From positions 372,001 through 436,000 of the forward strand of contig JAGMUV010000027.1 in assembly GCA_020744425.1 (NCBI GenBank): 64,000 bases of DNA, given 5' to 3'. The translations under genes and the position numbers were made by a program. Positions within the stretch are counted from its first letter, which is position 1. Every line of letters starts with the position of its first letter. Shown piece by piece: positions 12,902-56,345 of this stretch. The notes beneath the pieces are model-generated. The model was given only the letters and a program-made list of their open reading frames with translations. It searched no databases and was not told the DNA's origin. Origin of the DNA: Dactylonectria macrodidyma. Its lineage: Eukaryota > Ascomycota > Sordariomycetes > Hypocreales > Nectriaceae.

Positions 12902-12912
12902 AGCACTACGGC
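12902..12912. repeat. Target-site duplication of LINE-3 (left copy)
   Basis: AGCACTACGGC here equals 13934-13944. The two 11-bp copies exactly bracket LINE-3. Confidence 0.88.
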
Positions 12913-13933
12913 TGGATTGGATTGGATTTTATTTCGCCCGGAGGGAAGTCCCTATAGGGCCTTGATACAATCTAGTTCACATTTCAGAACATTTGGTACC
13001 TGACACCCCAAGCCCCACGGATTGTCGTCTCATCGCTTGCTGCTCAACCTCGTCGCTGCTTGTTCCATGACAGGCCTGCTTGAAGGCCAAATTCTGCAAG
13101 TGTTCAGCATCCTATCCTCGGCAGCTGAAGCACGGTCTGCCAAAATTGAGGCTGCTTTTTGTTAGTATAGTCGCACGCTAGAGGTTAGTTTGCCGATGGC
13201 CGCTGGCCCGCATCGAGCCTGTGCGTCGCGATAGCAAATTTGATTGCCGCACGCACAGCCTGCATGTTTGGCTTCCACTTTTCGTCGTCCGACGCAGCTT
13301 TTCCTCCCAAGAAGAAAGACAAATTCCCAATCTTTGTTCGCGAGCATTTAAACATGGCTTCCCGTTGCATTGTCCACTTTTTGCATCGGAAGAGGAAGTG
13401 CCCAATCGTCTCTGCTGCTTGTCCACAATCGCATATGTCCGATTCCGCTGCCCCTATCCTGTGAAGATAACTGTTCAGTCGTATCATCCCAGTCCGAAGC
13501 TGGGCTATCACGTCCGATTCTTTTCTTTTTAGTGAGTCGTATAGTGCACGGGTGTGCTTGCCCGGCAGGGCCTTGTCGATGCGCTTTGAGTACTGTCCAA
13601 CCCCTTCCGGGAGTCGCCCACACTGCCGTTGTTGGAGGAGCGCCAGTCGAAGTGTTGTGGACCTTGCTTGGTACGACGGTGTCTCTACCACGCACTCTGC
13701 TTTGGTAGCTCTCTGCGCTGCTGCCTTGGCCATCGGTCCCAATGCAAAACCTTCGGCCTTAGCCGGCACCCACATGACTCTAACAGAACAGCCTCTTTTC
13801 CGAAGGCACTTGGTGCGGTCGTATATCTGACGGATAGTGCATTGACCGGATTGCTGCCGAGGCCTCCTGATCACTTCCACGGCCGAGCGGTTGCTCGTCA
13901 TGACCGTTACGTCCTGAAAAGGAAGCTTGGGCG
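12913..13933 (-). mobile_element. LINE-3: 5'-truncated copy of the LINE-4 family
   Basis: 1021 bp, minus strand. By eye it is identical to LINE-4 positions 23557-24577, including the whole 3' UTR and the CCAAT-repeat tail. It keeps only the last 238 or so codons of ORF2. The 11-bp duplication and 5' truncation are classic signs of an aborted target-primed reverse transcription. Near identity in both coding and UTR sequence means the insertion is very recent. Confidence 0.93.
13185..13931 (-). pseudogene. LINE-3 ORF2 C-terminal fragment
   Basis: Open frame matching the last part of LINE-4 ORF2: degenerate RNase H (MTSNRSAVEVIRRPRQQSG), WVPAKAEG, and terminal CDCGQAAETIGHFLFRC. It lacks endonuclease and reverse transcriptase and has no start, so it is a dead 5'-truncated copy rather than a gene. 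Confidence 0.9.
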
Positions 13934-13944
13934 AGCACTACGGC
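13934..13944. repeat. Target-site duplication of LINE-3 (right copy)
   Basis: This is the second AGCACTACGGC, immediately outside the truncated 5' end of LINE-3 and one base from the left inverted end of transposon A. Confidence 0.88.
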
Positions 13945-13945
13945 A

Positions 13946-13975
13946 GGCGATAGGGGTCACTGTTGCAAAACCCCC
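13946..13975 (+). repeat. Left terminal inverted repeat of transposon A
   Basis: It begins GGCGATAGGGG and ends CACTGTTGCAAAACCCCC. The reverse complement of 19056-19086 matches over about 30 bp with one small difference (T versus GG). Confidence 0.85.
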
Positions 13976-14108
13976 AAAATCACCACGCAGGTGCCAAATT
14001 AGGTTAGAGCCATATTCGCGCTGACCCGCAGTACATTGGCCTGGGTACCTCAGCTTGAATTTCTTGATTTTTGCGAGTGACAGGGAAGATACAGTCGCCG
14101 CAGCGAGC

Positions 14109-14122
14109 CCGCAGCGGACCAG
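14109..14122 (+). repeat. 14-bp motif, copy 1 of 3 in transposon A
   Basis: CCGCAGCGGACCAG. It differs by one base from CCGCTGCGGACCAG at 15212-15225 and 18680-18693, all in the same orientation: one between the left end and gene 1, one in the gene 1/gene 2 divergent promoter, and one upstream of gene 3. Candidate binding site for a transposon-encoded protein. Confidence 0.55.
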
Positions 14123-14173
14123 CAGATTGCATTTCTATTCTATTCAAAGCGGCATTAAGCTTTATGCCCCTTC

Positions 14174-15025
14174 TCAATTATCCTCATCCTCCTCTTCATC
14201 GTCTTCAGCTTGTTGAATGAGCTGCTAAACATTGAGTTAGTAGTTGCATTGCATCTGTTGATTTGATCACACTTACGACCCAGAGCCGAGCAGCTCCGGC
14301 GATGGCCTCCAACGCTATAACCTTTCTTTCCTCGAGACTCTTCTCTAATACCTCCCCAAACGAATCCAAAGCAGGAGCTGGTACTGGAGCGGCAGGAGGG
14401 GCCGCACCACTACCGCAAGCTCGTAACTGCTGAGCGGCGCGCAGCGCAGCAGCGCGCCAGGCATCATCCGGATCGTCATTCACGCCACTGAACTGCCGGT
14501 TCAGGTCCCAAAAGGCACGCACAGCAGCATGAGCCGCAGCGGGGACCTAGCAACGCAGATTGGTCAGTGGTTTGTTACCTGACAGAGCAGGGATGTCTTA
14601 CCGGCCTGCATGTGTGGCCAGTCTTTGCGCAGTCCCAGCACGCAGCACCTGTATCTACTCAGTGCATGTCAGCGTAGGAGGTGTACGGCCTTGGGAAACC
14701 AAGCATACTGTCTTGAGAGGCACATTCATGGCCGGGAGCCCTTGTGGCGCGGGTGACGCAGGGCCGGCACGGGAAGTGACGCACCGAACCACGGGGAGGG
14801 GCCTTCTTCGTCTGCTTCTTCTTCTGCTCAGACAGGCAAGTTAGCATCCGTCGCTTCGCATGAGGACTTACTGGATCGTACGGTAATCTTCGCCGCGGGT
14901 TTGCGGATACTGGGTTGGATCAATCTTCTGCTCCCCTTCACTGAGGCGTTCCGGCTGCGAGAGTCCCCATCTGTCGTGCCAGCGGTCATGGTCTCACTTA
15001 CGACGACTGTATCGGCTGTGGACAT
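14174..15025 (-). CDS. Transposon A gene 1: six-cysteine zinc-cluster protein
   Basis: Predicted 208-aa protein from ATG 15025. My exon model is 15025-14882, 14823-14709, 14648-14602, 14546-14277 and 14224-14174. Each intron is GT..AG, and frames fit only if the first donor is GTACGA at 14881. Splicing builds a C-x2-C-x11-C-x7-C-x2-C-x6-C cluster encoded across exons 2 and 3, close to fungal Zn2Cys6 spacing. It is preceded by a Lys/Arg-rich stretch and followed by an Ala/Pro linker, a short helix-rich region and an acidic tail (AEDDEEEDEDN). The role is inferred: DNA binding at the transposon ends or control of its genes. The homologous slot in transposon B (52034-52839) encodes the same cysteine pattern. 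Unannotated as a family as far as I know. Confidence 0.72.
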
Positions 15026-15211
15026 GGTGCCGTCGTTGGCCACAAGACTTTCCACGGACGTGATGATACAAAAGGGAAGGTGGAACAGGGTTAGAAGGGA
15101 TCTAGGTTCTGTAGATATTTGGTCCTGCCCCTGGTTTGGTGGGGTTCCACCAATCAGTAACTTGACGCTAAGCCCCTCCGGGTCAGTCACCGCTTCGGGC
15201 CAGCTGCAAAA

Positions 15212-15225
15212 CCGCTGCGGACCAG
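15212..15225 (+). promoter_or_regulatory. 14-bp motif, copy 2, in the divergent promoter of transposon A
   Basis: CCGCTGCGGACCAG lies between the divergent starts of the zinc-cluster gene (15025) and the integrase gene (15311). Its position suits a shared operator, but binding is inference only. Confidence 0.5.
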
Positions 15226-15310
15226 TGCGGCAAGCCAGCCTCATCACACCCCTTTCTGGCTGTCAGGATGAAGCAGATCGTCCACACTCTTTCGACCTCA
15301 CTGCGCAAAC

Positions 15311-17038
15311 ATGGCACGTCCGCCCAACCCAATCGATGAATACCGTGACTATGTCACTCATCTCTACCTCAACGGCGTCTCGCGAAGCAGGATTCAGTAC
15401 AAGCTTCGGAAGCATCATCGCGTCATCGTCAATCTCAGCACAATCTCTCGCCGAATCGCAAGCTGGCATCTCCCACGCCAGCAAGCCCGTACCAAAGAGA
15501 GTCCAGAGCTTATAGAGGCCACCCGCGACCTGATATTCCGCGTTGGGCTTAGCGAGAAGCAGACATTGAGCGTTCTACAGAGACAGTGCTGGCCGATCAC
15601 GAAACGAGGTCTGAAGCGCATCAGGCTTCACCCAGACCGCCGCTGGGTGCGCAGGCTTAATAGCGATGAGGAGCGCCTTGCATTGCTGGAGAAGACAGAG
15701 AAGGTTATTATCGAAATGACACGACGTTCCAATGCCATTTCCGGATATGGCAAAAGCCTCCTACAGCCTTATCTTCGCCAGCAAAGGCAGTTCTGGGTAC
15801 CAAGAGATCCTCTCTTTGCGATGTACAAAATCATGTTCCCGAATGAGGTCGAGATCCGGAAAAGGATGTTTCGGAGGAAGAAAGGACAGTTTCTTGTCCC
15901 TGGTCCGAACTACCAGTGGTGCATTGATGGTCATGACAAGCTCAAGGCGTACGGATTCGAGATATACGCTGCAATCGATGCCTACTCGCGCAACATTATC
16001 TGGTTTTATGTTGGCCACTCTGCTACAACTGCTTTGAGTGTTATGAAGCAGTACTTGGCCGCATGCAACACATACGGCTTCCGGCCATGGTATCTGCAGG
16101 CAGACAGAGGTAGCGAGACGCCGCTAATCGCTGCAGCTCATTGGAATTTTGCTTTAGCGGCAGACGGACGGGTGGAGTGGAACGGGAAGGTTTTCCAGCA
16201 AGGGAAGCGCCTAAAGGATTCCTACAAGGCCGCACCGAGCACAAAGAATGTCAAGATCGAAAGTTGGTGGGAGCGCATGCTGCATGTATCTTCCCGGCAG
16301 TGGGTGGACTACTTTGGGGAGCTTGCCAGAGACGGGGACTTCGACGGCGATATGCTAGAGGATCAGATCGCCATCTATGCCGTCTTCGAAGATATACTAC
16401 GCCAAGAACTCTTCGACTTTGTGGAGGCGTGGAACATTCATCGGATCCGCCTTCAGAAGAACCGTCCGCACGTGGTCCACGGTCAGCCCTGGATGAACTA
16501 CCATTACCCGGACCCAGAGAAGGCATGCAACTGGGGGATCCCCATTAACCGTTCGGTCCTAGAGGAACTGCACAGACCACTGGCTGATATCGACATTAGC
16601 ACTTGCTTGGAGCCACAGACAAAGTATTGGTGTCGCCAAGTTCTCGTCGAAATGGGCTACGATGACGTCGTCCATGGGACTCACCAGGAGCCAGACAAGC
16701 TGCGGCCTTTTAAGCGATTCTACCTGGACCTTCGAGATAGAATCATTCAGCACATCGAAAGTGGCCTACAGCCTATATTGGCATATCGCAAAGCGCCAAC
16801 AGGGGGTGTTGCCGAATATGTAAGCCTTGCCGTTTCGATGCGGGTTCACGAATCTAAACGCATATAGGAAGCATTGTACGACCGAGCAAATCAGGCTTTC
16901 CACAATGAACTTGGAGATGGGGAACCGGCAGAGCAACCACTTGTTGAACTAGGATATGAGGATGAAGAAGGGAACGATATGGAGGAAATAAGTGATGATG
17001 AGCAGGATGGCGAGACTTCAGATGAGGAAGCCGAGTAG
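15311..17038 (+). CDS. Transposon A gene 2: rve-like DDE integrase/transposase
   Basis: Predicted 559 aa from ATG 15311, exons 15311-16819 and 16868-17038 (intron with GTAAGC, CTAAAC and ATATAG). Residues 1-60 form a helix-turn-helix-like start (VSRSRIQYKLRKHHRV). The catalytic core shows candidate triad D206 (WCIDGHDKLKAYGFEIYAAI), D265 (LQADRGSE) and E317 (VKIESWWERM), the DDE pattern of integrase-core domains. The C-terminal exon is very acidic. Expected activity: nuclear cut-and-paste strand transfer. The intron keeps the frame (phase 0), and the uninterrupted alternative would end early at 16867. The frame is intact, unlike the homologue in transposon B. Confidence 0.85.
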
Positions 17039-17231
17039 TCAATCCTTCCTATTCTGTCGGACAGCAAATGTTGCAGGGATCTTTGTCCCTTTGAAGCGTG
17101 TGGATCGTGCTGGTGGAAGCGCCTCATCGATATCAGTGCCAGGCAGTCGAGCTTGATCGCTATTAATGCTCTGAGCAATGAACTCTCGGGTTACCTAGTA
17201 GTGTTAGAACTAGACTCTGCAATGAGGTGAT

Positions 17232-18524
17232 TTAGTCTCTTACGAACTCCGGGACCAAAATCTCCTCATCATCTCCCCCGTCCACTTCGTCTCCTTCACC
17301 TGCCATACCTCCACTCCCCTTATCGCCAGGGATGTCGTCAAACAATAGATCACGAAGCGGATCTTCCACTTCACAGGGGTCTGCCACATCTTCGTGTACA
17401 ATGATCTCCTCAACAATATCTTCAAGCTCATCGTCCGTTGGGCTCTGGCGGGAGGCAGTCGGGACACGCTCTTCCGGCTTCACCTTGATGTGTACCCCCT
17501 GCTTGACCTGGTACGTGTCCCTGGTGCGACTCTCCTTCTTGACATGTTCCTCCTGCTTGATGCGCTTCTTGCGCCGGGGCGCAGGACTCGGGTCTTCTTG
17601 CTTGACCTTCCGTTTCTTTTCTTCCTTGACTGGCGTGGAGTATTCATCTGGCCTAAGCGGTGTGACTGGCTCCTGCTTGTCGACTACATCCGTGGATGTA
17701 AGGACGACTAGCACCTTCAACTGTCCTGCCTGATTGTTGCCGAAGTGCCCCGAGGCGAGCATACTCGACGGGGTCGTGTACTTGTCGGTGTTCGGAACGG
17801 TGACGATCTTCTTGCCAGAGAAACTCGAAGCGTAAGAAAGGCTCCATAGGTCTCTGTTCGTAAGATCGATTGTGGGCGGGAGCGGACGGAGATGGTCGAA
17901 CAAAATCGCGGTGAATGAGGGCCAAGTCAGTAAATCTGCCGAGGAGAACTTAATCACTGTATCTTTCAGAGGCAGCACCGTCTCCGGAACCTCCACTGCA
18001 AGCCCATTGAAATACCTGGTCTCCAAGCTCACAAGCAGGAGACTTATATGCACCCACTGGTACCCCGTCCGCTGCCTCATAGGCTTTCTGGTACTGGTTT
18101 TTGTATCCTGAATGGCCCGACTGGCCGCTGATGCAACTGTCATGAAATGGGGATTGCCCGGCGCCTCAGGAGGAGGTATGCGTGCTCGTGTATTCACCGT
18201 GCCGGGAGCAGACACTTCGTTGGGGAGCAGTTGAGCCGTGCGTCCAATGCTGATGAATGACACGGGTTTCGGTCTGTCACGCAGCAGCTGGCTTGCTGGA
18301 CTGACTGGCCGTGGCGGGGAGTCCTCAACCTCCACTACCTCATCGTATGGGCCCGGAAGTGCCGGAGTTTTGGACCTGGCTTGATGTTGGAGCCGAAAGG
18401 GGTTGGCTAGGCCGCAATGGCCGCAATAATTCGCGCCAACATACGTCGTGGTGAAGAGTTCATGATGTTTCTTTCCGGCTTGGACGCAATAGACATGCTC
18501 GGGGGGAATCTTTGGAGGGCTCAT
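17232..18524 (-). CDS. Transposon A gene 3: C/H zinc motif and SUMO-site-rich partner protein
   Basis: A 430-aa intronless ORF from ATG 18524, convergent with the integrase (about 190 bp between stops). The N-terminus carries C13-x6-H20-x13-C34-x2-C37 (YCGHCG), a likely small zinc-binding module. A middle globular part (about residues 150-310) has no family I recognise. It is followed by a basic region with at least five psi-K-x-E sites (VKEE, VKQE, IKQE, VKKE, VKPE), KKRK-type nuclear localisation signals and an acidic tail. The transposon B partner has the same plan. Inferred role: nuclear accessory factor that is SUMOylated or binds SUMO-related machinery to help or restrain transposition. 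Confidence 0.75.
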   Translation of the reverse strand: MSPPKIPPEHVYCVQAGKKHHELFTTTYVGANYCGHCGLANPFRLQHQARSKTPALPGPYDEVVEVEDSPPRPVSPASQLLRDRPKPVSFISIGRTAQLLPNEVSAPGTVNTRARIPPPEAPGNPHFMTVASAASRAIQDTKTSTRKPMRQRTGYQWVHISLLLVSLETRYFNGLAVEVPETVLPLKDTVIKFSSADLLTWPSFTAILFDHLRPLPPTIDLTNRDLWSLSYASSFSGKKIVTVPNTDKYTTPSSMLASGHFGNNQAGQLKVLVVLTSTDVVDKQEPVTPLRPDEYSTPVKEEKKRKVKQEDPSPAPRRKKRIKQEEHVKKESRTRDTYQVKQGVHIKVKPEERVPTASRQSPTDDELEDIVEEIIVHEDVADPCEVEDPLRDLLFDDIPGDKGSGGMAGEGDEVDGGDDEEILVPEFVRD

Positions 18525-18679
18525 TTCGGTGGAAGAGAGGAGGTGAAAGTCGGAAAGGAGAGAAAGGGGGGAATCTGGTTTCCACTGAGGTTTTAATTTA
18601 ATAAGAACAATCAATATCACCCTTTCCTATGGTGGATGAAGTCGCTAGACTCATTTGAGCAGGAGGTTACTGAGCTAAT

Positions 18680-18693
18680 CCGCTGCGGACCAG
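18680..18693 (+). promoter_or_regulatory. 14-bp motif, copy 3, upstream of transposon A gene 3
   Basis: An exact copy of the 15212-15225 motif, about 155 bp upstream of the gene 3 start codon and inside the right subterminal region. Confidence 0.5.
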
Positions 18694-19055
18694 GAGCGGG
18701 ATCACTGCGGTGACCCTTTGTGGGCTCACTAAGCTGCTCCTCATCCGGAGATCAAGATGAATGGGTAACTAAGCGCTCGCGATTTCTGGAATAGGTGAAT
18801 TTTAATTGCGATATAGCAAACAGCATTGGATTCGAGGCCAACTCAGATTGTCAGAACCATCTTCTGGACATATTTTGTGACTATTTTAGTAGTAGCAACC
18901 AGTCCACCATTTATCGACTGATGTGGTGAGCATGAAAGTCAACGGCCGAATGCTACCGCGCGAGCCCGCTGCTAGTCCGCGGTACATATCCCATGGCGTC
19001 CCAAAGTACCGAGATGACTAAGGAGTTGAGCGCCTAAACCCAAAAGGAAACGACC

Positions 19056-19086
19056 GGGGGTTTTGCAACAGTGCCCCCCTATCGCC
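19056..19086 (-). repeat. Right terminal inverted repeat of transposon A
   Basis: The reverse complement of the left end (GGGGGTTTTGCAACAGTG, then CCCCCTATCGCC). The outer boundary at 19086 lies only about 11 bp before LINE-4. Confidence 0.85.
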
Positions 19087-19201
19087 CAGAGATTCGCGAA
19101 AAGACCGTAATCGACGAAGAGCGGAGGCTTGCTTGGACGATCTTGAAATCTCTATATCTTCTCACTTCAAAGAGTTGTGCTGTGGTGGACCACCCTGCAT
19201 C

Positions 19202-20533
19202 ATGAGTGCCCTGGCGAGTGCGGGGACCGTGGTGGGGCCGCGGGGTCCCATATCGACGCCAACGGGGCGCCGAGTCATGAAACGCAAAATTGACGACCAA
19301 GGGAGGGAATCGAACAAAAGCAGCCGATATGCAACAAGGACGACGACAAACGCGAGAACAATTGAAGTGGAATGTGCGACCGACATAAGAAATGGAAACA
19401 GCAGCGATAGTACCGACGAGGGAGGAGCGACGCTCCAGAGTGCGTTGGATTTGTTGGGCCAGTACCGCGCCGAGTTCCAAGGGATGAAGGAGGCGATTAA
19501 GGAGCAGAGCGAAACAATCCGTAACCAGCAAGAGACCATCCGAGAGTTGAGGGAAGCCGTTGAAGGGCAGCTGAATTGTATACGAGATTTGAGTCAACGA
19601 TTTGAGGACACCAAGCAGCAGATGGGCCATGACCTGAAGCGAGCACACGAGCTGCTTGAAGCTATCGCAGGGCGCGCTCCGGCTACCCCGCCGGTCTCTT
19701 TCGCTGACGTCACTCGTTCATCACCCTCATCCGAACCTAGCAATGTGAGGACGAACGTCTCCAACAACACCTTGGCATCGTCCTTGGCAAATGAGCTCTA
19801 TTGCACGATTGATACGTCGCGGGTCGAAGAAGGGAACAGAGACTGTGCACAGGTGGGACCAATCCGGAAAGCCATCGAAAGTGAGATGAGGGCGAAGGAT
19901 GGCCAGGCGGCCTGGAGATGCGCGGCAGTTGTAAGGGATGCCCGGAACGCAGAGCGAGTCAAGGTCATCTGCAGAGATGAAAACGAATTGAAGCAGGTCA
20001 AGGACGCCGCGCAGAAGACGGCGGTTGTGGGAGTGAGGGTGATGAGAGACCAGCTCTACCCGGTGAAGGTGGACAACGCCAACCGAACCGCAGTGCTAGA
20101 CGCAGAAGGGAACGTCCTACCTGGGGCGGCTGAAGCGCTCGGCGCCGAGAATAATGTCAATATTGCCAAAATCTCATGGCTAAGCAAAAAGGAATCGGGA
20201 AAAGCGTACGGATCGATGGTGGTGTACCGGTACGTCACGAAGGGGAACGACGCGATGCGGCTCGTGGACGGACACTACTTTGACCTAGCCGGGGAATCAG
20301 CGTGCACAAACGTTTTTGAGCCACGCAAGGGACCAGTACAGTGTTACAACTGCCAAGAGATTGGCCATAAGTCGTTCCGGTGCAAGAACCCTCAGATTTG
20401 CGGACGATGCGCGGGACCGGGGCATCATCACAGGGAGTGCCAGGCGGTGGAACCGAAGTGCGTGCTGTGCGGCGGACCACACGAATCGTTCAGCAGGAAC
20501 TGCCGTGTGCGGAACGCGCGCAGCGATGTGTAA
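19202..20533 (+). CDS. LINE-4 ORF1, gag-like protein
   Basis: A 443-aa ORF from ATG 19202 (MSALASAG). The frame is open further upstream, but 19202 leaves a UTR of about 100 bp like LINE-1. A coiled coil spans about residues 80-145 (Gln/Glu-rich, KEQSETIRNQQETIRELRE). The C-terminus has knuckles CYNCQEIGHKSFRC, CGRCAGPGHHHREC and [15 protein letters not shown]. The stop TAA at 20531-20533 overlaps the ORF2 ATG (20526) by eight bases in a different frame, which suggests termination-reinitiation for ORF2 translation. Intact. Confidence 0.9.
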   Translation: MSALASAGTVVGPRGPISTPTGRRVMKRKIDDQGRESNKSSRYATRTTTNARTIEVECATDIRNGNSSDSTDEGGATLQSALDLLGQYRAEFQGMKEAIKEQSETIRNQQETIRELREAVEGQLNCIRDLSQRFEDTKQQMGHDLKRAHELLEAIAGRAPATPPVSFADVTRSSPSSEPSNVRTNVSNNTLASSLANELYCTIDTSRVEEGNRDCAQVGPIRKAIESEMRAKDGQAAWRCAAVVRDARNAERVKVICRDENELKQVKDAAQKTAVVGVRVMRDQLYPVKVDNANRTAVLDAEGNVLPGAAEALGAENNVNIAKISWLSKKESGKAYGSMVVYRYVTKGNDAMRLVDGHYFDLAGESACTNVFEPRKGPVQCYNCQEIGHKSFRCKNPQICGRCAGPGHHHRECQAVEPKCVLCGGPHESFSRNCRVRNARSDV

Positions 20534-23500
20534 GACCTTCCGCATCCTACAGCTCAATGTACGAAAGCGAGAACCGGTACAACAAAGTTTGATGAACGAC
20601 GCAGACCTCAAGGACTACGGAGTGCTGGCGGTCTCTGAACCGTACGCAAAAAAGATCGACGGCAAGGTGGTAACGAGCCCTGCGGGGCACAGCAACTGGA
20701 CGAGGATGATACCGACGCACACGCACGATGCGCCCTGGCCGATCCGAAGCATGCTCTGGGTACGAAGCGACATCGAGGCGGAGCAGGTGCCGATACCATC
20801 AGCAGATCTCACGGCAGCGGTGCTTCGACTGCCACAGAGACACATCCTAATGGTGTCAGTGTACGTGAATGGGAAGAGCACAGAGGCGCTAATATCTACA
20901 GTTAGAGTGCTGCATGGCCTGATCCAGCGATTCCGTAATGGCACCGGCACGCGTACGGACGTGGTGCTGGCTGGAGACTTCAACCGCCATGACCTACTCT
21001 GGACCGGAGACGAGGTGTCAGCAAGAAGACAAGGCGAAGCCGAGCCAATCATCGATCTGATGAACGAGCACGGCCTCTGCAGCCTCCTTCCGAGGGGCAC
21101 GAAGACGTGGCAAGGCCCGGACAAAGAGAGCACCATCGATTTGGTGCTCGCAACGTCGGAACTGGCAGATGAGATGGTGAAGTGTTCCCTTCATCCGACC
21201 GACCACGGGTCAGACCATAGAGCGATCCAGACGACGTTTAACATCGCAATGCCCGAGAGGACCACGACGCAAAGATTGTTGTTCAAGAACGCTCCTTGGA
21301 CTCTTATAAGAACCAGAGTGGAAGATAAACTCCGGCCGCTCCCCTGGGCTGTAGACGTGCAGACGCAGACGGACCAGCTGATGCGAGTCGTCCTAGAGGC
21401 AATCCACGACCTGACGCCTCGAGCGCAACCTCCACCGTATGCGAAACGCTGGTGGACAAAGGACCTAACACAACTGCGGCGGGCATACACGTTCTGGCGG
21501 AACCAAGCGAGGGCGCAACGGCGAGCGGGTCAAGCGCGACCAGACCTGGAGCGACGAGCCAAGGAAGCAGCCAAGGAGTACCACGACGCCATACGGAGCC
21601 AGAAGAAAGCACATTGGGACGACTTCCTGGCCGAAGACGTCAACATCTGGAAAGCGGCCAAGTATCTCGAACCTAGCAAGGACGCCTTGGGCGACAAGGT
21701 GCCACCCTTGAAGAGAGGAAATGGATCTATGACCAAGGACAAGGCAGAACAAGCCGAAGAGCTTCTCGGCACGTTCTTCCCTCCCTTGCCAGCGAGAATC
21801 GAAGATGAAGGAGTGCGACCGCAGCGGAAAGCGGTGCCCATGCCGGGCCTGACCCCGGAAGAAATCGAAGAAAAAGTCATGGCGGCAAAACCATGGAAAG
21901 CACCCGGCGAAGATGGCCTCCCGGCGATGGTGTGGAGACAACTCTGGCCAGTGGTAAAGTACCGGGTGTTGGCTCTCTTCGATGCGTCGCTCAGAGACGG
22001 CATAGTGCCTCGCCAATGGAGAAGTGCGAAAATCATCCCGCTGAAGAAGCCGGACAAGGGAGACTACACGGTAGCGAAGGCGTGGCGACCGATATCGCTT
22101 TTGTCAACCCTTGGTAAAATAATGGAAGCGGTCGTTGCTGATCGCATCTCCTACGCAGTAGAGACTTACGGGCTCCTGCCTGCAAACCACTTCGGAGCGA
22201 GGAAGCGACGGTCGGCCGAGCAAGCGCTCCTGCTCCTGCAGGAACAAATTTACAAGGCATGGAGAGCTCGCAAAGTGCTCAGCCTGATCAGTTTCGACGT
22301 TAAAGGCGCCTACAACGGAGTGTGCAAAGAGCGACTACTCGAGAGGATGAAGGCGAGAGGGGTACCAGACAGACTGGTCAGGTGGATCGATGCCTTCTGC
22401 TCCGGGCGAACAGCCTCGATGATGGTGAACGGGTACACGTCTGAGCAGCGAGATCTACCCCAAGCAGGTCTCCCTCAGGGATCGCCGCTGTCACCCATCT
22501 TGTTCCTCTTCTTCAACGCAGATTTAGTGCAGAGAAGGATTAAGGCGGAAGGCGGCTCAATTGCATTCGTGGACGATTACTCGGCCTGGGTGACCGGCCC
22601 GACCGCGGAGGCGAACCGGGCAGGCATTCAGTCGATCATTAACCAAGCGCTCGAGTGGGAGAGACGCAGCGGTGCAACGTTTGAAGCAGACAAGACGACA
22701 GTCATCCACTTCACGCGAGTCGCCGTGCGTAACAGTGACAGGTCGTTTTGGATCAAAGAGAATGAGGTCAAACCTAAAAACAGCGCAAAAATTCTGGGAG
22801 TGGTCATGGACGTAGGCCTGCGGTACCAGGAGCACATGGCTAGAGCCGCCGCCAAGGGGCTCACCGCCGCCATGTGTCTGAGAAGGTTGAAAATGCTGTC
22901 ACCGAGGGTGGCGAGACAGTTATTCGTAGCGACGGTGGCGCCGGCGATGGACTATGCCTCCAACGTCTGGACGCACGCTCGCCGCGCAAGAGAAGCTGCC
23001 TGGCTGAACAAAGCACAGTTGGTGGGAGCGCAGGCAATTACAGGAGCGTTCCGTACTGTCGCAACGGCGGTGGCCGAGGCCGAAGCCAGTATCCAGACGG
23101 TAGAGCAACGACACAGACAAGCCGCGACAAGATTCTGCATCAACTTGCGGACCCTTCCGAAGACACACCCGCTAGCAGCTTTGAAGAACAAGGCAAGCAA
23201 GCGGTTTATATCACCAATGCAGAAGATTGTCTCGGCGGTGGAAAGGGACCATACGGAGCGGATGGAGGTTATCCATGAGTATGCGTTGCCGCCATGGACC
23301 AGTCGCATCCCAGTAGTGGTCGAGGACGACCTAGCGAAGGCAGCCAAGGCACCAAACGACATCGAGGGCATCATCATAGCAACGTCTAGCTCGAAGAAGG
23401 GCGGCATAGTAGGAATGGGAGGAGTCGCGCGCAACGCGACTCGCAACAGTGCAGGCGAGGTGGTTGCCAGCTATTCCGTCACTCTCGGGCCCGGAGACGA

Positions 23501-24305
23501 GCAGAATCCGTACACAGCGGAACTAGCAGCAATAGCGATGGGGCTGGAGTGCACGCCGCCCAAGCTTCCTTTTCAGGACGTAACGGTCATGACGAGCAAC
23601 CGCTCGGCCGTGGAAGTGATCAGGAGGCCTCGGCAGCAATCCGGTCAATGCACTATCCGTCAGATATACGACCGCACCAAGTGCCTTCGGAAAAGAGGCT
23701 GTTCTGTTAGAGTCATGTGGGTGCCGGCTAAGGCCGAAGGTTTTGCATTGGGACCGATGGCCAAGGCAGCAGCGCAGAGAGCTACCAAAGCAGAGTGCGT
23801 GGTAGAGACACCGTCGTACCAAGCAAGGTCCACAACACTTCGACTGGCGCTCCTCCAACAACGGCAGTGTGGGCGACTCCCGGAAGGGGTTGGACAGTAC
23901 TCAAAGCGCATCGACAAGGCCCTGCCGGGCAAGCACACCCGTGCACTATACGACTCACTAAAAAGAAAAGAATCGGACGTGATAGCCCAGCTTCGGACTG
24001 GGATGATACGACTGAACAGTTATCTTCACAGGATAGGGGCAGCGGAATCGGACATATGCGATTGTGGACAAGCAGCAGAGACGATTGGGCACTTCCTCTT
24101 CCGATGCAAAAAGTGGACAATGCAACGGGAAGCCATGTTTAAATGCTCGCGAACAAAGATTGGGAATTTGTCTTTCTTCTTGGGAGGAAAAGCTGCGTCG
24201 GACGACGAAAAGTGGAAGCCAAACATGCAGGCTGTGCGTGCGGCAATCAAATTTGCTATCGCGACGCACAGGCTCGATGCGGGCCAGCGGCCATCGGCAA
24301 ACTAA
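20526..24305 (+). CDS. LINE-4 ORF2, AP endonuclease-reverse transcriptase-RNase H-like polyprotein
   Basis: 1259 aa, fully open. AP-endonuclease: GDFNRHDLLWTGDE and [12 protein letters not shown]. Reverse transcriptase: KAWRPISLLSTLGK, SFDVKGAYNGV, GLPQGSPLSPILFLFFNADL and FVDDYSAW (about residue 680). RNase H-like: TAELAAIAMGLE is kept, but the expected catalytic Asp of the D-S-x-x-A motif is Ser/Asn (MTSNRSAVEVI) and the last Asp region is also changed. The end is CDCGQAAETIGHFLFRC, a zinc motif typical of these elements. Expected role: target-site nicking and reverse transcription of the element RNA. The last third is duplicated in LINE-3. Confidence 0.92.
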   Translation: MCKTFRILQLNVRKREPVQQSLMNDADLKDYGVLAVSEPYAKKIDGKVVTSPAGHSNWTRMIPTHTHDAPWPIRSMLWVRSDIEAEQVPIPSADLTAAVLRLPQRHILMVSVYVNGKSTEALISTVRVLHGLIQRFRNGTGTRTDVVLAGDFNRHDLLWTGDEVSARRQGEAEPIIDLMNEHGLCSLLPRGTKTWQGPDKESTIDLVLATSELADEMVKCSLHPTDHGSDHRAIQTTFNIAMPERTTTQRLLFKNAPWTLIRTRVEDKLRPLPWAVDVQTQTDQLMRVVLEAIHDLTPRAQPPPYAKRWWTKDLTQLRRAYTFWRNQARAQRRAGQARPDLERRAKEAAKEYHDAIRSQKKAHWDDFLAEDVNIWKAAKYLEPSKDALGDKVPPLKRGNGSMTKDKAEQAEELLGTFFPPLPARIEDEGVRPQRKAVPMPGLTPEEIEEKVMAAKPWKAPGEDGLPAMVWRQLWPVVKYRVLALFDASLRDGIVPRQWRSAKIIPLKKPDKGDYTVAKAWRPISLLSTLGKIMEAVVADRISYAVETYGLLPANHFGARKRRSAEQALLLLQEQIYKAWRARKVLSLISFDVKGAYNGVCKERLLERMKARGVPDRLVRWIDAFCSGRTASMMVNGYTSEQRDLPQAGLPQGSPLSPILFLFFNADLVQRRIKAEGGSIAFVDDYSAWVTGPTAEANRAGIQSIINQALEWERRSGATFEADKTTVIHFTRVAVRNSDRSFWIKENEVKPKNSAKILGVVMDVGLRYQEHMARAAAKGLTAAMCLRRLKMLSPRVARQLFVATVAPAMDYASNVWTHARRAREAAWLNKAQLVGAQAITGAFRTVATAVAEAEASIQTVEQRHRQAATRFCINLRTLPKTHPLAALKNKASKRFISPMQKIVSAVERDHTERMEVIHEYALPPWTSRIPVVVEDDLAKAAKAPNDIEGIIIATSSSKKGGIVGMGGVARNATRNSAGEVVASYSVTLGPGDEQNPYTAELAAIAMGLECTPPKLPFQDVTVMTSNRSAVEVIRRPRQQSGQCTIRQIYDRTKCLRKRGCSVRVMWVPAKAEGFALGPMAKAAAQRATKAECVVETPSYQARSTTLRLALLQQRQCGRLPEGVGQYSKRIDKALPGKHTRALYDSLKRKESDVIAQLRTGMIRLNSYLHRIGAAESDICDCGQAAETIGHFLFRCKKWTMQREAMFKCSRTKIGNLSFFLGGKAASDDEKWKPNMQAVRAAIKFAIATHRLDAGQRPSAN

Positions 24306-24590
24306 CCTCTAGCGTGCGACTATACTAACAAAAAGCAGCCTCAATTTTGGCAGACCGTGCTTCAGCTGCCGAGGATAGGATGCTGAACACTTGCAGAATT
24401 TGGCCTTCAAGCAGGCCTGTCATGGAACAAGCAGCGACGAGGTTGAGCAGCAAGCGATGAGACGACAATCCGTGGGGCTTGGGGTGTCAGGTACCAAATG
24501 TTCTGAAATGTGAACTAGATTGTATCAAGGCCCTATAGGGACTTCCCTCCGGGCGAAATAAAATCCAATCCAATCCAACCGTAGATTCGC

Positions 24591-26840
24591 CGGATTTACA
24601 CCAACCTACACACTTGACTTCAACCGACCAGAACTCAACAGAAACCTCATCAAATATCTTCAAGTTTGAAATCCAGTAGAAGGAGTATCTTTTCATACAT
24701 ATCAATCCATCTCATAGTCTTCAAGCCACCTTGGTCGCTTCCTGTTCCGCTGCGGCCGTCCTGACCCCCGAAATACCACCAGCATCTCCCGATCACTCTC
24801 AACAACAAGAGAAGGCCTTTTGGAGCTAGTCTTACAGCTCTCAGTGTTTCCTGGCTCATCCAATCTCTTGTGGTCTGGTCGATTTGGTGATTGCGATACC
24901 ACAGGAAGCTCTGATGGCGGTGGAAGAGCGACGATTATCTCAGCTCGCACCCTCGGACTCTCCTCGGCAGTCCCAGAAGCTACCCGTCGTGCCCCCTGCT
25001 TCCCTTTCACCTTATCCTTATTCTCATGTCTAGTCTTCTCTCGAAGCTGGCGGTTTGCTTCTTGAACCTGTTGTCTGGCTTGCTTTTCCTGCCGCTTTCT
25101 CTCCCTTTCCTCCTCTCGTTGCCTCCTCCTCGCCAAAACCTGGGCCTTTTGCTCCTCTGCCTTCTGTTGTCGCTGAGACTTCTCGATCTGCTTCTGTAAA
25201 GCCTGCTCCTTCTTCTGAGTTTCCAGTGCGGCTTTTTTCAGGCGCGCTTGGGCAATTTTCTGCGGGCTGAATACCTGGGCTGAATTAGGATCCGTACGGT
25301 CAAAGAGATAATCTTTCAGAGCTTTACCGCGCTGTCTGCGCCGCTTCTCGTGATCAATTGTCTCGCGGAGTCCTTGATTCTCATTTCTAAGAAGTTCAAC
25401 CTCCGCTTGGATGCTTTCGAGTGTCCTCTTGAGCTTCCTCGTGTGAACATCAGCTTCGTCAGACGATTTACCCACTACTTGGTCAACTAGTCGTCGCAAA
25501 TCCCGAGCTGTAGGTTGTTGCAACGCTGCTGACTGTGCCGAGTCACTGCCTGTACTTGGCTCGTCGTCTGTTTTCTTAGCGATCTGCGATAGGACCACTT
25601 CTGGGTCAAAAGGGTGGAGCCCAGTCCGTTTCCAGCCACTCGCGATGTTCTCGGAAGAGAAGGAAGCTTCAAATGCATTCCAAAACAAGGTCCAAAACTC
25701 GCGTTTCGACAGACTTACGAGCCCTTGTGTTTTTGACATCCATCCGATGAGCTGATTGGTGTAAGCCGTCGACAGAGGGCTAAATAACGACACATCCAGC
25801 GGTTGAAGCCGATGCGTGGAATGGGGAGGAAACACCGCAACGATGATTCGGTGTTGCTCACACCACTCGAGAAAGTCCATATTAATATGGCTAGAGTGGC
25901 CATCGGTGATGAGAAGGCGATAATCGCGACCGTTTCGAGCTTTGGCCTTGGTGAAGCGATCGAAAACACCGATGAGCCACTCTTTGCCAAGCTCATGATT
26001 TGTCCAGCCCGTTTCAGAGGTTGTAAAGAAAGCAGAGTGATGCTCTGGATCAAATTCTGTGAGCCAAGAGTCCTGAACTTGTCCTGGCTTGCCTTGGTAA
26101 ATGAGGAAAGGAGGTAAGGAGCTCATGTCCTGACAGATGCACGCCAAGAACGTGATCCAGGATCGGTTACCATCCTGAGATGCACCCAGCAACTTTCCTT
26201 GTTTTTTAAGATTAAGAGTGAAAACCCTCTTGGTTCGATTGATGACACCCAAGAGAAAACCTTTTTCGTCAACATTGTACGTATTTTGAGGGAGGATGTC
26301 GTATTCTTCGATTTTCTTGCGAATCTTCCATCTTTAGCCACGAACAGGAGACTTGGGTCGTTGACTTACAAGCTCAAAATAGGCCTTATACCTAGAGGTA
26401 TTGTCTGCCCTTTTGCGAGCAACATCAAAACCATCAAACCAGCTACAACCTAGCTCTTGCCGGTAGCGTTGGACGAAGCTGTATGGCCAGTTCTTTCCGA
26501 CTTCGGTTTTTGCTACATCCTGGGCGAAATTCTTAATCATAGGTAGCGTAGGTGGAATACCACGAGACGAAAGCTTATGAATGTAAGCAACAAGCTCAAG
26601 TTCCTGTTGTTTTGACAGTCGAGATTTGTATGTCGAGTCGGCATCCCGTCTTGACCGCTGTTTGCCTTGATGGCGCCGTCGCAAGGTAGTTTCGTCGCAA
26701 CTGAACTGTCTAGAAACTTCGGCATAATTGATTGATTCTGCCGATTTTAAAAAATCAAGAGCCTTGTCAATAGCTTCCATGGTTGTTGAGTTGCGGTCGA
26801 CTGAAGTCAAGTGTGTAGGTGGGCATAAATCCGGCGGATC
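24591..26840 (-). mobile_element. Pogo-type DNA transposon, coding part apparently intact
   Basis: Imperfect inverted ends face each other at about 24591-24640 and 26785-26840. They share CCGGATTTA and ACCTACACACTTGACTTCA. A pogo-type transposase gene lies between them on the minus strand. LINE-4 inserted at the very edge of the left end. The right end continues into two direct copies of TCCGGCGGATCACCGG (about 26829-26860). The exact outer boundaries and the TA duplication are not certain. Confidence 0.78.
24702..26780 (-). CDS. Pogo-type transposase (HTH-CENP-B plus DDE_1)
   Basis: Exons 26780-26370 and 26324-24702, with a 45-bp intron at 26325-26369 (GTAAGT to AAG). Removing it turns an in-frame TAA into a clean pogo junction (YFEL joined to IRKKIEEYDI). 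Predicted 677 aa from ATG 26780. The N-terminal helix-turn-helix/CENP-B-like DNA-binding part ends near residue 137. The DDE_1 core shows YNVDEKGF, LLITDGHSSH and FPPHSTHRLQPLDVS. The C-terminus is a long basic, Gln/Arg-rich coiled coil (KKEQALQKQIEKSQRQQK). Cut-and-paste transposase; no nonsense codon after splicing. The intron could instead be read as a stop codon, but frame preservation and the family consensus favour splicing. Confidence 0.85.
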
Positions 26841-51852: not shown

Positions 51853-51860
51853 TATTTTAC
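51853..51860. repeat. Target duplication of the MULE (right)
   Basis: Second TATTTTAC, matching 48249-48256. Confidence 0.85.
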
Positions 51861-52033
51861 CTTACATGTGCTTAGTCATTCATCTAAATCACTGTCGCCC
51901 GGGTCACGTGCCCACGCGTAAATCTCTTCTACCTAACCACGCAGCACCCGTTGACAATCCCTCCTCCCCTCGCTGGCCCAATTCGATTCCGTACGCACAC
52001 TTTCTCACGCAATACGGCTTGGTACACGTCATC

Positions 52034-52839
52034 ATGGCGCCCCGAGGCAACCGCAACCGCCCCAAGACCAAGGAGACCCCTGCTGCTGCTGATACGGCTG
52101 CGATCGATGCCCTACGCGAGGATATGGGCGAGCGCGCATTCAACCTGCTGCCCAAGAAGGTCCTTGACGTTGAGACCTATACTTTCGCGTACAAGACCGA
52201 TAAGCCCGATAAAAACCCCGAGGTCACCATCTGGGCTTTGATGAACGCTTTGAAGGGCAGCACCACCAAGGGCCAGGAAGCTGTTGACTCTACCAAGGTA
52301 TGTCCTTATCTTAGGCCTGTACTAGCCTGGTTGATTACGTACTAACCCGTATTAGACCCCACGTCTGCTGGAGATCCGTAGCAAGAAGGACAAGAAGAAG
52401 CTCCGGGAGACCCCGTACGTGATGAACTTCAGCAGCGGCCAGAATTGCGACGCTATGCTGCGTCATCTGTACGGCGACGAACGGGAGGGTACGGACCGTT
52501 GCGACAAGTGTACGAAGAACAACGGGGCCCTCAAGGGATGCATTGTCGCTGAGGGGACCCCGGCCTGCGCCAATTGCGACTGGAACCGATCTGGCGCCGC
52601 CTGCTCCTTCACGAGTAAGTACGCTGCAATACGTTCTCATTTTCTATACTGATTGACCACAAGAGCGTGGTACCAAGCGCAAGGTTAGCGACGACGACGA
52701 CGACGACGATTCCGACAGTGATGATACGGACCCGTTCGAAGGCCTTGACCGCAAGACCTGCCAGAAGCTTGTGCAGATCTTCAAGGCGGCTACCAACCGC
52801 AAGAAGCACAAGAAAGGCACCTCTTCGAAGTCGGCTTAA
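52034..52839 (+). CDS. Transposon B gene 1: six-cysteine zinc-cluster protein
   Basis: Predicted 232 aa, exons 52034-52297, 52356-52614 and 52664-52839 with clean GT..AG introns. It starts MAPRGNRNRPKTK. The cysteines follow C-x2-C-x9-C-x8-C-x2-C-x8-C (CDKC, then ACANC), nearly the same pattern as the transposon A protein. A DDDDDDD acidic run and a basic Lys-rich tail (NRKKHKKG) follow. The rest of the two proteins shows little similarity. Inferred DNA-binding accessory protein of the transposon. It is on the same strand as the integrase here, unlike in A where it is divergent. Frames are intact. Confidence 0.75.
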
Positions 52840-53278
52840 GGTATTTGACCCAATACGTAAATGTACGAGCCTTTACTAACTCTTTTTTCTTTTTTTTTGC
52901 CCCGTAGTCCGCCTAGTCACTTCGCTCTTTTGAGTTGAAAAATTTCTTTTTGATTTACTAGGAAACGCAGAATACATTCGCGTATATTCGCGCACGAGGG
53001 CGTACGGTGAACTATGATACCCCTTTCTTAGCTAGAGTCTGAAATCAGGTTTTCTTGGATCCATGCTTTTGTGTTTCACTTAACTTATGACATTTGTTCA
53101 AAATCTTGTGGGTCTGACCAAGTGAGGCTAAACATATTGGGCATGACGCAATTTGGCGCCATACGATCACAAACGTAACACACACCTTTTTCCAAAATTA
53201 AATCGCGCAATCTCAACTCAGACTTCGTCTCTTTCCTTACGCCTACACTTGACTACGTACGGCAACATACGGTTCAAG

Positions 53279-54904
53279 ATGCCTAGGGGTCGCCATTCAA
53301 TTGATATATCCCCATTTCGCCTTCAGATTCAACAATGGAAAAACGACGACGGTCTCACGCTCAAACAAATCGTACAGCGCCTTAATAACGAATTCCACAT
53401 CGAAGTTCAACGTACGACTGTATATCGCAACCTGAAGATCTGGAATGCTTCCATGAGGCAGTATACCGAAGACTCTGAACAACTACGTGAGCGTATTAAA
53501 GACCTATTCTTTGACAAGGTCTTGAACGATCACTTTATGCTTCTGCAGCTTCACTCTGAGGGCTTTCTTATCTCAAAGACTGGCCTCTCACGGATACGGT
53601 GAGACCTTGGCCTTTGGCGGCGTCAAACCCCTGAGATGACTAGCGAGAGACTTCACGAATTGCGCCGTTTCTTTGAAGACGAGTCCGAATTACACACTAA
53701 GCTTGAGACCTACGGGCGCACACTACTCTACGTATATGTCCGTCGAAATCATCATATCTTGAGCCGCCGAGCCCTGTACTCATGCTTTCGCGACTTTTCC
53801 CCTACTTGTGTTACCGAACGGTGGAATACGATGCGATATCGCCGAACTGGATGGACTTCTCCAGGCCCCGACTTTATTTGGTCCCTTGATGCGTACGATA
53901 AATTGAAGGCCTGGGGCTTTGAGATCTATGCCTCCATTGACGCTTACTCACGGTTTATTACGTGGTTCTACGTGGGCATATCCTCTGGTACGTCACGAAG
54001 CGTTGTTGCGCAGTATCTCGATGTTCTCTCGCAGCGGAAAACCATGCCAAATATCATCCGTTCCGACCGCGGCCAAGAGACAATCCTTATGGCTGGAGCA
54101 CATTATTACCTTTCGAAGACCCGCGTACGCGCACGGGAAGGTATCCCACAAGATGTGCGCTTTCGAGACTGCTGGATCTATGGCAAAAGCACGCATAACG
54201 AAAAGATTGAGAGCTGGTGGCTTCGATTGAGTAGGGGTAGGGCTAAATTCTGGCGGGTATGTAGTATTATCACTCCGTTCGACCCTATGCTAACCTGAAT
54301 CTAGGAGTATTTTAGTGAAATTACCGCACTTGGCCATTTCTCGAACGACTCCCTACCCGACCGTATTGCAATGCTCTATCTCTTCATGCCGATCCTGCGG
54401 GCTGAGTTTGCCGACTTCGTACTTACGTGGAATTCGCACTACATTCGCAAACAGCGCAATAGGCCGCATGTGGTTCCTGGGCAGCCATGGACCCTCTACT
54501 TTCAGCCTACCGCACGGCAGGTTGAGAGCTTTGCAGAGGTTATCCCTCAAGATCGATTACAAACGATCCAAGATATCTTCGACGGGGACCGTATTGATCT
54601 TGATGCCTACTTGCCAGAAGATACAATAGCTATCTGTGATCGCATTCTTAGAGGCCAGGAAGATCTGCCAAGAGATCCGCCACAGCAACCCAAGCTTTCA
54701 GCGTATCTATTCCTACGAGATCGTTTACGGCAGTACATTAGGAGTAAGCAGCAGCCAGAGCTGGCATTATTGGAGACGCCTACGGGTGGCCTAGACCGCG
54801 TACGTAATCATTTGGCCACTCACGATATCGATACTGCTTCGCTTTTAGAACGCATTGAGGAGGAAGAGATTGACTGGGGTGAGGGAGACCAACTATACGA
54901 CTAG
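53279..54904 (+). pseudogene. Transposon B gene 2: rve-like integrase with one in-frame TGA
   Basis: ATG 53279 (MPRGRHSIDISPFRLQIQQW). The N-terminal HTH matches that of A. TGA at 53600-53602 interrupts RIRxDLGLWRRQ, where A reads on. Catalytic core: FIWSLDAYDKLKAWGFEI, IRSDRGQETILMAGAH and EKIESWWLRL, the same DDE triad as A. A 48-bp intron (54257-54304) and an open exon to 54904 follow. A 45-bp intron (GTGAGA to CTAG) could remove the TGA, but alignment with A favours a nonsense mutation in ancestral coding sequence. Probably dead unless spliced that way. Confidence 0.78.
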
Positions 54905-54936
54905 ATACATAACCAATTGTACCAATTGAACTGAAA

Positions 54937-56085
54937 CTAATCCCTATTCTTATTCTTTCCCCTACCAATCCGGACAGGAAGCCTCTTCTGAGGTGAGAGA
55001 GCCTGGGCCTCCGAGTGTTCATCGATATCACTCGCGAATGGATCGTCAAGGACGGCCTCAAAAGTAGCCGTATCCGCGTCATCTTCACCCGAAAGCTCAA
55101 CCTGAATTTCAGCCTGAATATCATCCTTGCCCTCCAACTCCAAGCAGGTCTCAGCTTCCTCTTTTACCGGTATACGAGATAGCTTTCGTGGCTTTGATTC
55201 CTTCTTAATTGGGGATACGCGCTCTGACTTTACCGTACGTGAGGCTTTGCGTTTGCTAGAGCTCCTCGCCGAGGTTTCTGACTCTGGATCAGAGGGTAGG
55301 CGATCAATCGCTCGCTTGTGACCACGTACGGCTCTTGACGGCATTGGTGACTCAATATCAGGCCGAGGCTTTACATTGAAGTACCAAAAGGTCAAATGGA
55401 CCGTATCGCGCTTTGGGGCAAGCGAGATATTGCCCACACGAAAGAGGTCCGCAAACGAGGTCGTTTCGTACGCGGCATCGGAGAACTCAACGGGTCCAAA
55501 GGTGGCAGTTTGAGTCACTACGGAATGAACGACCTTCCATTCCTTAACTGCAAGCCTCTTGTCACACTGCTTGACAATGAACTCTATCATTGCGGCATGA
55601 GAAGGAAACTTTGCCCCGAGAACGATCTCAACATTTCCTGTACGCTTTCCAACGAGGTTTGCCGTCTTATCGTATACTGGGGTTTCAACACCGTCAAGGA
55701 CATTGTCATAATACCCATCGCACGACCAAAACGAAGCGTGCAATTCGACGACAATCTTAGCCGTATGGCTTGTAGCTGCGATGCTCCTTGACCGGCTTTC
55801 AATAGCTAGATTCGTAGCGTTCTGATAGGTATCAGGTCTCGGTCGGGATCGTTGGGAAGGAATCGTCATCGCGTTGCCTCGTTGGGCTGTTGATTGGGAA
55901 GTAGGTGAATCGACTGTGAGGTCGATAGAAATAGGGGTAATAGGGCCAAATGATGATGAAGCCGTAGGGAGCCGTTGAGCGCAATGTGGGCAATAAAGGG
56001 CCCCAGGGAACTTCGTACGTATATCCACATGACGGCTGCGGTCTTTGGGACAATACTCTGTCGAAGGGGATGAAGGTGTATCCAT
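54937..56085 (-). CDS. Transposon B gene 3: C/H zinc motif and SUMO-site partner protein
   Basis: 382 aa, intronless, from ATG 56085, with about 30 bp between its stop and the integrase stop. N-terminal C12-x6-H19-x12-C32-x2-C35 (YCPHC) matches A gene 3 almost exactly. A middle domain (about 100-240) precedes basic stretches with psi-K-x-E sites (VKSE, IKKE, VKEE) and an acidic region. Overall identity with A gene 3 is low, yet position, orientation, motif and composition agree. Inferred nuclear accessory protein. The frame is intact although the neighbouring integrase is broken. Confidence 0.72.
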   Translation of the reverse strand: MDTPSSPSTEYCPKDRSRHVDIRTKFPGALYCPHCAQRLPTASSSFGPITPISIDLTVDSPTSQSTAQRGNAMTIPSQRSRPRPDTYQNATNLAIESRSRSIAATSHTAKIVVELHASFWSCDGYYDNVLDGVETPVYDKTANLVGKRTGNVEIVLGAKFPSHAAMIEFIVKQCDKRLAVKEWKVVHSVVTQTATFGPVEFSDAAYETTSFADLFRVGNISLAPKRDTVHLTFWYFNVKPRPDIESPMPSRAVRGHKRAIDRLPSDPESETSARSSSKRKASRTVKSERVSPIKKESKPRKLSRIPVKEEAETCLELEGKDDIQAEIQVELSGEDDADTATFEAVLDDPFASDIDEHSEAQALSPQKRLPVRIGRGKNKNRD

Positions 56086-56308
56086 TATGTAAGAGAAGGA
56101 TGATGAATGAACTTCGTTCCCAAATGGCCACGTTTGTGGCCGAACGTAATATTTGCCTCAAGCAACCATAACTAAATTAGGGTCACGACAATGGGCTCTC
56201 CCTGTTGAGTGATATTTTATCTTTACAGTGATATGCATCCCCTAGATGTGATTAAACAGAAGGATAATGGCACATTGGGGTTGCCCTAGTAAGAAAAAAA
56301 TTGAAAAG

Positions 56309-56345
56309 TTGAATTTTGGAACTCTGCCGCTTGTGGCCTTCCGTA
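56309..56345 (-). repeat. Right inverted end of transposon B
   Basis: The reverse complement of 48138-48174, ending CCTTCCGTA. It is immediately followed by the lone foldback arm at 56346. Confidence 0.82.

Follow-up and report, generated by a model that had tools for sequence, protein, structure and literature searches.

Cut-and-paste elements of eukaryotes are mostly viewed as one transposase between two ends. The 64,000-nucleotide window of DNA from the soil fungus Dactylonectria macrodidyma analysed here (contig JAGMUV010000027.1, positions 372,001 to 436,000) raises the question of what kind of transposon encloses three open genes, encoding a six-cysteine protein (gene A), an integrase, and a protein with an N-terminal C..H..CxxC motif (gene C). 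The initial annotation had described this element, referred to as transposon A, as a three-gene mobile system of unplaced type. We read it, with a probability of about 80%, as a cut-and-paste IS3EU transposon of a lineage with two cis-linked accessory genes, whose proteins would work as set out below.

The inverted arms of the element (13953-13975 and 19056-19078) are 23 nt long and 96% complementary, and the element starts at 13939 with the TACGG terminus TACGGCAGG, its opening reading TACGGCAGGCGATAGGGG. The left end had earlier been placed at 13946, with inverted ends of about 30 bp, and both values are corrected by these borders. A 33-nt end pattern with at most three mismatches gave 64 matches in the 77.3-Mb genome (77 contigs) and none when read backwards, and the inverted ends are thus more than chance. 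Both TAYGG..CCRTA ends are found in the two C14 copies, in short copies on C4 and C44, in a C20 copy resembling a miniature inverted-repeat transposable element, and in other copies. In the window, the right arm stops after CTATCGCCCA (19079-19088), where a 5.5-kb Tad-like retrotransposon intervenes. The CCGTA behind this insertion (24579-24583) is, judging by its sequence and position, probably the missing right terminus, split off by the Tad-like element; simple loss of the terminus was rejected.

All three enclosed genes are open after splicing, as had been proposed, and each is longer than a single open reading frame (ORF) once introns are counted. Gene A has four introns (exons 14882-15025, 14709-14823, 14602-14654, 14277-14546, and 14177-14224; stop 14174-14176), its splice model equals the deposited protein P0164 (EDB81DRAFT_733330, 100% over 210 aa), and its product carries the cysteine cluster C-x2-C-x11-C-x9-C-x2-C-x6-C. 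The integrase and gene C have a single intron each (16820-16867 between exons 15311-16819 and 16868-17038; 17195-17243 between exons 17244-18524 and 17039-17194). These two genes are convergent and lie tail to tail, the integrase stop (17036-17038) abutting that of gene C (17039-17041). In an alignment of 25 C proteins, C13, C34, and C37 are among the invariant columns. Pfam gave no match above cut-off for proteins A and C.

The catalytic residues of the integrase are D206, D265, and E317 (DD51E) in an IS3-like core, and no HHCC domain is listed in the Pfam scan. It does not fit the Ginger, Maverick, or retroviral type, as Pfam rva_4 (2.4e-21, 76.8 bits, above cut-off) outscores rve (29.9 bits, under the cut-off of 32.6). 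The best NCBIfam model is IS3 for three families, with weak values (0.0043, 3.2e-7, and 3.3e-5) that are all far below cut-off, and a PDB search with the integrase returned no integrase match, only TnsB (E 0.084). IS3EU entered Repbase in 2013 and is described as having TA..TA ends and target duplications that are mostly 6 bp long (PMC10045372), and rust IS3EU elements bear TAYGG..CCRTA ends (PMC12730594). The left end of transposon A is TACGG, both ends are present in its relatives, and its own right terminus is displaced; target duplications are of 6 bp in family A, to which it belongs, and in the related family D, and of 5 bp in family B. The TAYGG ends, the 6-bp duplications, and the IS3-like integrase without an HHCC domain thus fit IS3EU, and the type need no longer be called unplaced (PMC10045372, PMC12730594).

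A protein search of the genome gave 89 integrase matches, a lower bound, the nearest with 82-92% identity. Gene A, the integrase, and gene C occur together in the window, on C40, in both C14 copies, and at C19:690-695k, while C19:491-497k and C33:349-357k hold the integrase and gene C plus DNA matching gene A. Target duplications of 6 bp (CACGTG, CTGGAG, AGCAAG, CCTTGC, and ATCTGC) were found in five of nine family-A end pairs, namely both C14 copies, two short C4 copies, and a 1453-bp non-autonomous C20 copy; the L024 pairing of two different elements was left out of this set. Four non-autonomous copies with family-A ends (L035, L037, L038, and L039) are exactly 1453 bp long, one of them with a matching 6-bp duplication. 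An open family-A gene C also lies at L040 (C26:353705-354994), where no convergent integrase was found.

Whether the three genes form one unit was examined in other fungi through protein searches, which returned 53 matches for C, 81 for A, and 110 for the integrase, the integrase search scoring only the 7996 candidates that shared most words. Twenty contigs carry at least two of the three protein kinds and two carry all three, in a count that took in 39 of the 110 integrase matches (P0054-P0092) and 80 of the 81 A matches (P0173 being without a contig), and in which a shared contig was judged by equal size; two pairs on large contigs (MRS44_013277/013641 and HRG_014336/014368) are non-neighbours. 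On contigs of at least 5 kb, matches that share their contig with another kind number 15 of 31 for C, 11 of 33 for the integrase, and 19 of 68 for A. The locus tags differ by one or two in eight pairs, among them BGZ61DRAFT_594246/594247 (A, integrase), FSOLCH5_015189/015190 (integrase, A), S40285_10795/10797 (C, A), and LZL87_014322/014324 (A, C). The genes thus recur together elsewhere, and the proposal of a mobile unit of three linked genes is supported both by further copies enclosed by the same ends and by linkage in other fungi.

Their divergence is matched as well. Pairwise distances correlate between integrase and C (r 0.918, 8 elements), integrase and A (0.822, 10), and C and A (0.826, 12), with none of 5000 permutations as high for any pair and host relatedness uncontrolled. 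The ratio of nonsynonymous to synonymous substitution rates between diverged open copies is 0.03-0.09 for the integrase, 0.16-0.28 for C, and 0.25-0.36 for A, where gene A of C19:492k was left out (exon transfer out of frame, 11 stops), and all three genes are under purifying selection. Taken together, linkage in other fungi, matched divergence, and purifying selection indicate that the three genes form a single unit, in which gene A co-evolves with the other two in one lineage.

Comparison with related families separates the two accessory genes. Three copies of family B were read, two of which are identical, and their lengths are 4973-4977 bp. Near-identical ends (TACGGAAGTCC..) enclose an integrase, a C-type gene convergent with it, and a six-cysteine gene in this family, with 5-bp target duplications in five of five pairs by eye (L030-L034). 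Family D elements, 3.58 kb long and 97-99.8% alike, have TACGG ends and hold an integrase and a C-type gene only, with 6-bp duplications in four of four pairs, also by eye. Integrase identities are 32.4% between A and B, 35.1% between A and D, and 33.5% between B and D. A convergent integrase lies within 3.5 kb of 33 of 44 C-type genes of at least 800 nt (7/8 in family A, 15/19 in B, and 11/17 in D). For the C proteins, BLASTP gave 3e-6 between B and D, and hhalign gave E 0.002 with a probability of 13-14% for both A-B and A-D. The tail-to-tail pair of integrase and zinc-motif gene is therefore kept across families about one-third alike in integrase (32-35%), and the six-cysteine gene is not general.

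The genome also supplies natural deletion mutants. Short copies of 2965 bp have retained the ends together with an open integrase but neither gene C nor the zinc cluster of gene A; two have matching duplications, one of which is enlarged by an insertion and has stops in its integrase. In the integrase tree, the two short rows group as sisters within the three-gene copies (support 100/98), which implies that loss gave rise to the short copies. The two C14 copies (L028 898-6051 and L029 2125-7278) are identical over 5154 bp and differ in flanks and target duplications, with 24 stops in the integrase, eight in C, and three in A; of the 444 substitutions against the window copy, C>T and G>A changes make up 427, and 266 of these fall at CpA/TpG. 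The simplest reading is that a copy killed by repeat-induced point mutation (RIP) was later moved by proteins made elsewhere. From the integrase-only derivatives and the movement of the dead C14 copy it follows that the proteins act in trans, and that A and C are dispensable in cis. Such copies make the purpose of the partners directly testable.

The integrase-only copies with 6-bp duplications, nested among three-gene copies, count in favour of the main rival, which takes A and C of an IS3EU element as cargo or counter-defence, acting on host silencing or host genes and not on transposition. The RIP-like mutation of a copy in this genome favours it too, as do the TET/JBP and alpha-kinase genes of rust IS3EU elements, which are thought to counter silencing (PMC12730594). 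Against it, protein C keeps its tail-to-tail place across the diverged families, suggesting a tie to the integrase. We consider the cargo explanation a serious contender, if somewhat short of an even chance.

As to how protein C might act, a SUMO-interaction-like stretch follows the N-terminal motif in all C proteins examined: VVEVEDS in family A, IDLTVDS in B and in family B2, and, by eye, SIDLTASD in D. The family-A protein has five psiKxE sites, compared with 0.52 in shuffles, and the C proteins of A, B, B2, and D have 5, 2, 3, and 3, with 0, 48, 10, and 17 of 2000 shuffles as high; the integrase has one (719 of 2000). These are candidate SUMO-interacting and SUMO-acceptor motifs, identified by motif counts. 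The top Foldseek matches of the poor C model are mostly ubiquitin-like folds (NORE1A, SATB1, p62 PB1, and LC3), so that a beta-grasp domain in protein C is a lead only.

We infer the biochemical role of each protein in the accessory-gene reading. With its DD51E triad, an RNase H core of IS3-like kind, and an N-terminus resembling an HTH, the integrase would bind the TAYGG..CCRTA inverted ends and connect them to the target DNA, the stagger being 6 bp. Protein C would be a conserved integrase partner acting in trans via its N-terminal zinc motif, the SUMO-interaction-like stretch, the possible beta-grasp domain, and the SUMO-acceptor-like cluster; we propose host-chromatin or SUMO-linked regulation. 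Protein A would be a zinc-cluster protein specific to this lineage that binds DNA, probably as a regulator.

Several observations weigh against this reading. Four of the nine family-A end pairs (C44, C19:847k, C27:256k, and C29:397k) are without a duplication, and so, by eye, is the window copy (left flank CAGCAC, right GATTCG). No C-type partner was found for 31 of 68 integrase matches of at least 800 nt. Gene A is absent from family D, protein A has no relation to the family-B six-cysteine protein detectable by hhalign (E 0.3), and C proteins align across families in the N-terminal motif only. Given the moved integrase-only and dead copies, A and C may be dispensable altogether. The AlphaFold models are poor (mean predicted local distance difference test scores of 43.4 for C and 49.6 for A), and Foldseek with the protein C model gave no match with E below 0.001, the best being 0.046. 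The trees contain fungal and metagenome homologues only; the placement in IS3EU runs via termini, duplication length, and integrase type.

Comparison with described systems bears on the next rival, a new superfamily. IS3EU/GingerRoot elements share with transposon A the TA..TA termini, mostly 6-bp duplications, absence of HHCC, a first D 100-300 residues in (here D206), and an IS3-like core (PMC10045372); transposon A differs in its two accessory proteins without a Pfam match and in having a cousin, family B, with 5-bp duplications. Styx of Zymoseptoria, with four ORFs and a transposase linked to IS3EU, is likewise multi-gene: two of its ORFs carry GATA and CCHC motifs that putatively bind DNA, its duplications are 6 bp long, and degenerate copies have been mobilised (PMC10853768). 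By its published description it is set apart through its 7.9-kb length, DUF3577 gene, and 36-bp ends, and the Styx study reports no Styx-like elements found outside Zymoseptoria (PMC10853768). In rusts and Tuber, TET+ IS3EU elements likewise show 6-bp duplications, their transposase and a second gene point in opposite directions, and the rust set has the TAYGG..CCRTA termini of transposon A, but their extra genes are the TET/JBP dioxygenase and alpha-kinase (PMC12730594). In the IS3EU literature as far as accessible, with Repbase itself and subscription journals outside the search, no description of the integrase/zinc-motif gene pair was found. The undescribed gene set and the accessory proteins without a Pfam match would suit a new superfamily, but termini, duplications, and kind of integrase all agree with published descriptions of IS3EU, which largely refutes it and leaves it very improbable. 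IS3EU is known, though little studied, and extra genes in it have been reported; this gene set is a new variant within IS3EU. That the ends belong to another element, with the genes between them by accident, would suit a window copy with no target duplication and one broken terminus, but is refuted by other copies with the same gene order between the same ends and by co-divergence, and its probability is negligible.

The damaged right end leads to a second finding, that the Tad-like element inserts precisely at IS3EU termini. In the window, the left Tad-like copy is flanked by the 11-bp duplication AGCACTACGGC (12902-12912 and 13934-13944). Tad duplications span the TAYGG/CCRTA end in the window (12902-13944 and 19079-24590), L021, L022, L024, and L037, in 5′-truncated and full-length copies alike, so Tad inserted after the IS3EU element; the converse, a transposon inserting at Tad 5′ ends, was rejected on the same evidence. 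In the flanks of 23 elements, a Tad-like element lies within 25 nt of 7 of 28 family-A ends, its 5′ end facing the transposon, and of none of 18 family-B and family-D ends; two of 20 further end sites have one within 60 nt. A survey from the retrotransposon side scored 40 of 275 candidates. Each of six near-full-length copies has an IS3EU end, one of family-B type, within about 60 nt of its 5′ border, a count outside which five further such copies stand. Five truncated copies lie at IS3EU ends (window left, L021, L024, L027, and L068), L085 seemingly at another family's end, and eight away from ends (L077-L080, L082, L084, L086, and L087), with two borders uncovered. CCRTA or CGTA directly follows the Tad 3′ end in eight of nine copies at IS3EU ends and six of eight others, so the short motif is part of the target.

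Insertion at the termini accounts for the damaged end of open three-gene copies such as those of the window and C40. It also adds a case of one mobile element targeting the termini of another. Tx1L of Xenopus, a non-LTR (long terminal repeat) retrotransposon, inserts into the DNA transposon Tx1D; the likeness is the fixed insertion place, and the difference lies in another retrotransposon clade and another DNA transposon. A wider proposal would make ascomycete IS3EU a two-protein machine, in which a DDE integrase and a tail-to-tail partner (zinc motif, SUMO-interacting motif, ubiquitin-like domain, and SUMO-acceptor sites) tie transposition to host SUMO, with ends at which a Tad-clade retrotransposon docks by preference; as a whole we hold this to be tentative and rather unlikely.

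Table 1. Features of transposon A and of associated elements in the window
Feature	Position	Strand	Basis or remark
Transposon A left end	13939..13975	+	TACGGCAGGCGATAGGGGTCACTGTTGCAAAACCCCC; first 33 nt with 0 mismatches to end pattern, as in C14 copies with 6-bp duplications
Gene A, six-cysteine protein, 210 aa	14174..15025	-	Splice model; identical to P0164
Integrase/transposase, 559 aa	15311..17038	+	Pfam rva_4 2.4e-21; residue spacing; splice model
Gene C, N-terminal C..H..CxxC motif, 478 aa	17039..18524	-	Splice model; exon 2 matches homologues such as P0001
Transposon A right end	19056..19088	-	Broken before terminal pentamer; compare intact right end of C14 copies
CCGTA, probably the displaced right terminus	24579..24583	-	Behind Tad-like insertion
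Tad-like non-LTR retrotransposon, near full length	19098..24578	+	Gag-like ORF with CCHC; reverse transcriptase (RT)/RNase H ORF; 5′ border approximate
5′-truncated Tad-like copy at left terminus	12913..13933	-	99.9% identical to right one
Second IS3EU-type element, family B2	51853..56345	+	Left end not found

Elsewhere in the window, large open frames at 24702-26333 and 49444-51429 encode what we take, by eye, to be pogo-like and MULE-like transposases. In the family-B2 element listed in Table 1, a six-cysteine gene accompanies an integrase, whose reading frame contains an in-frame TGA (53600-53602), and a convergent C-type gene (54937-56085). Another B2 element holds a family-D element (L044 473-4053), for which the window copy provides the empty site at about 51973, and comparison of the empty with the occupied site displays the family-D duplication, CAATTC (6 bp), directly.

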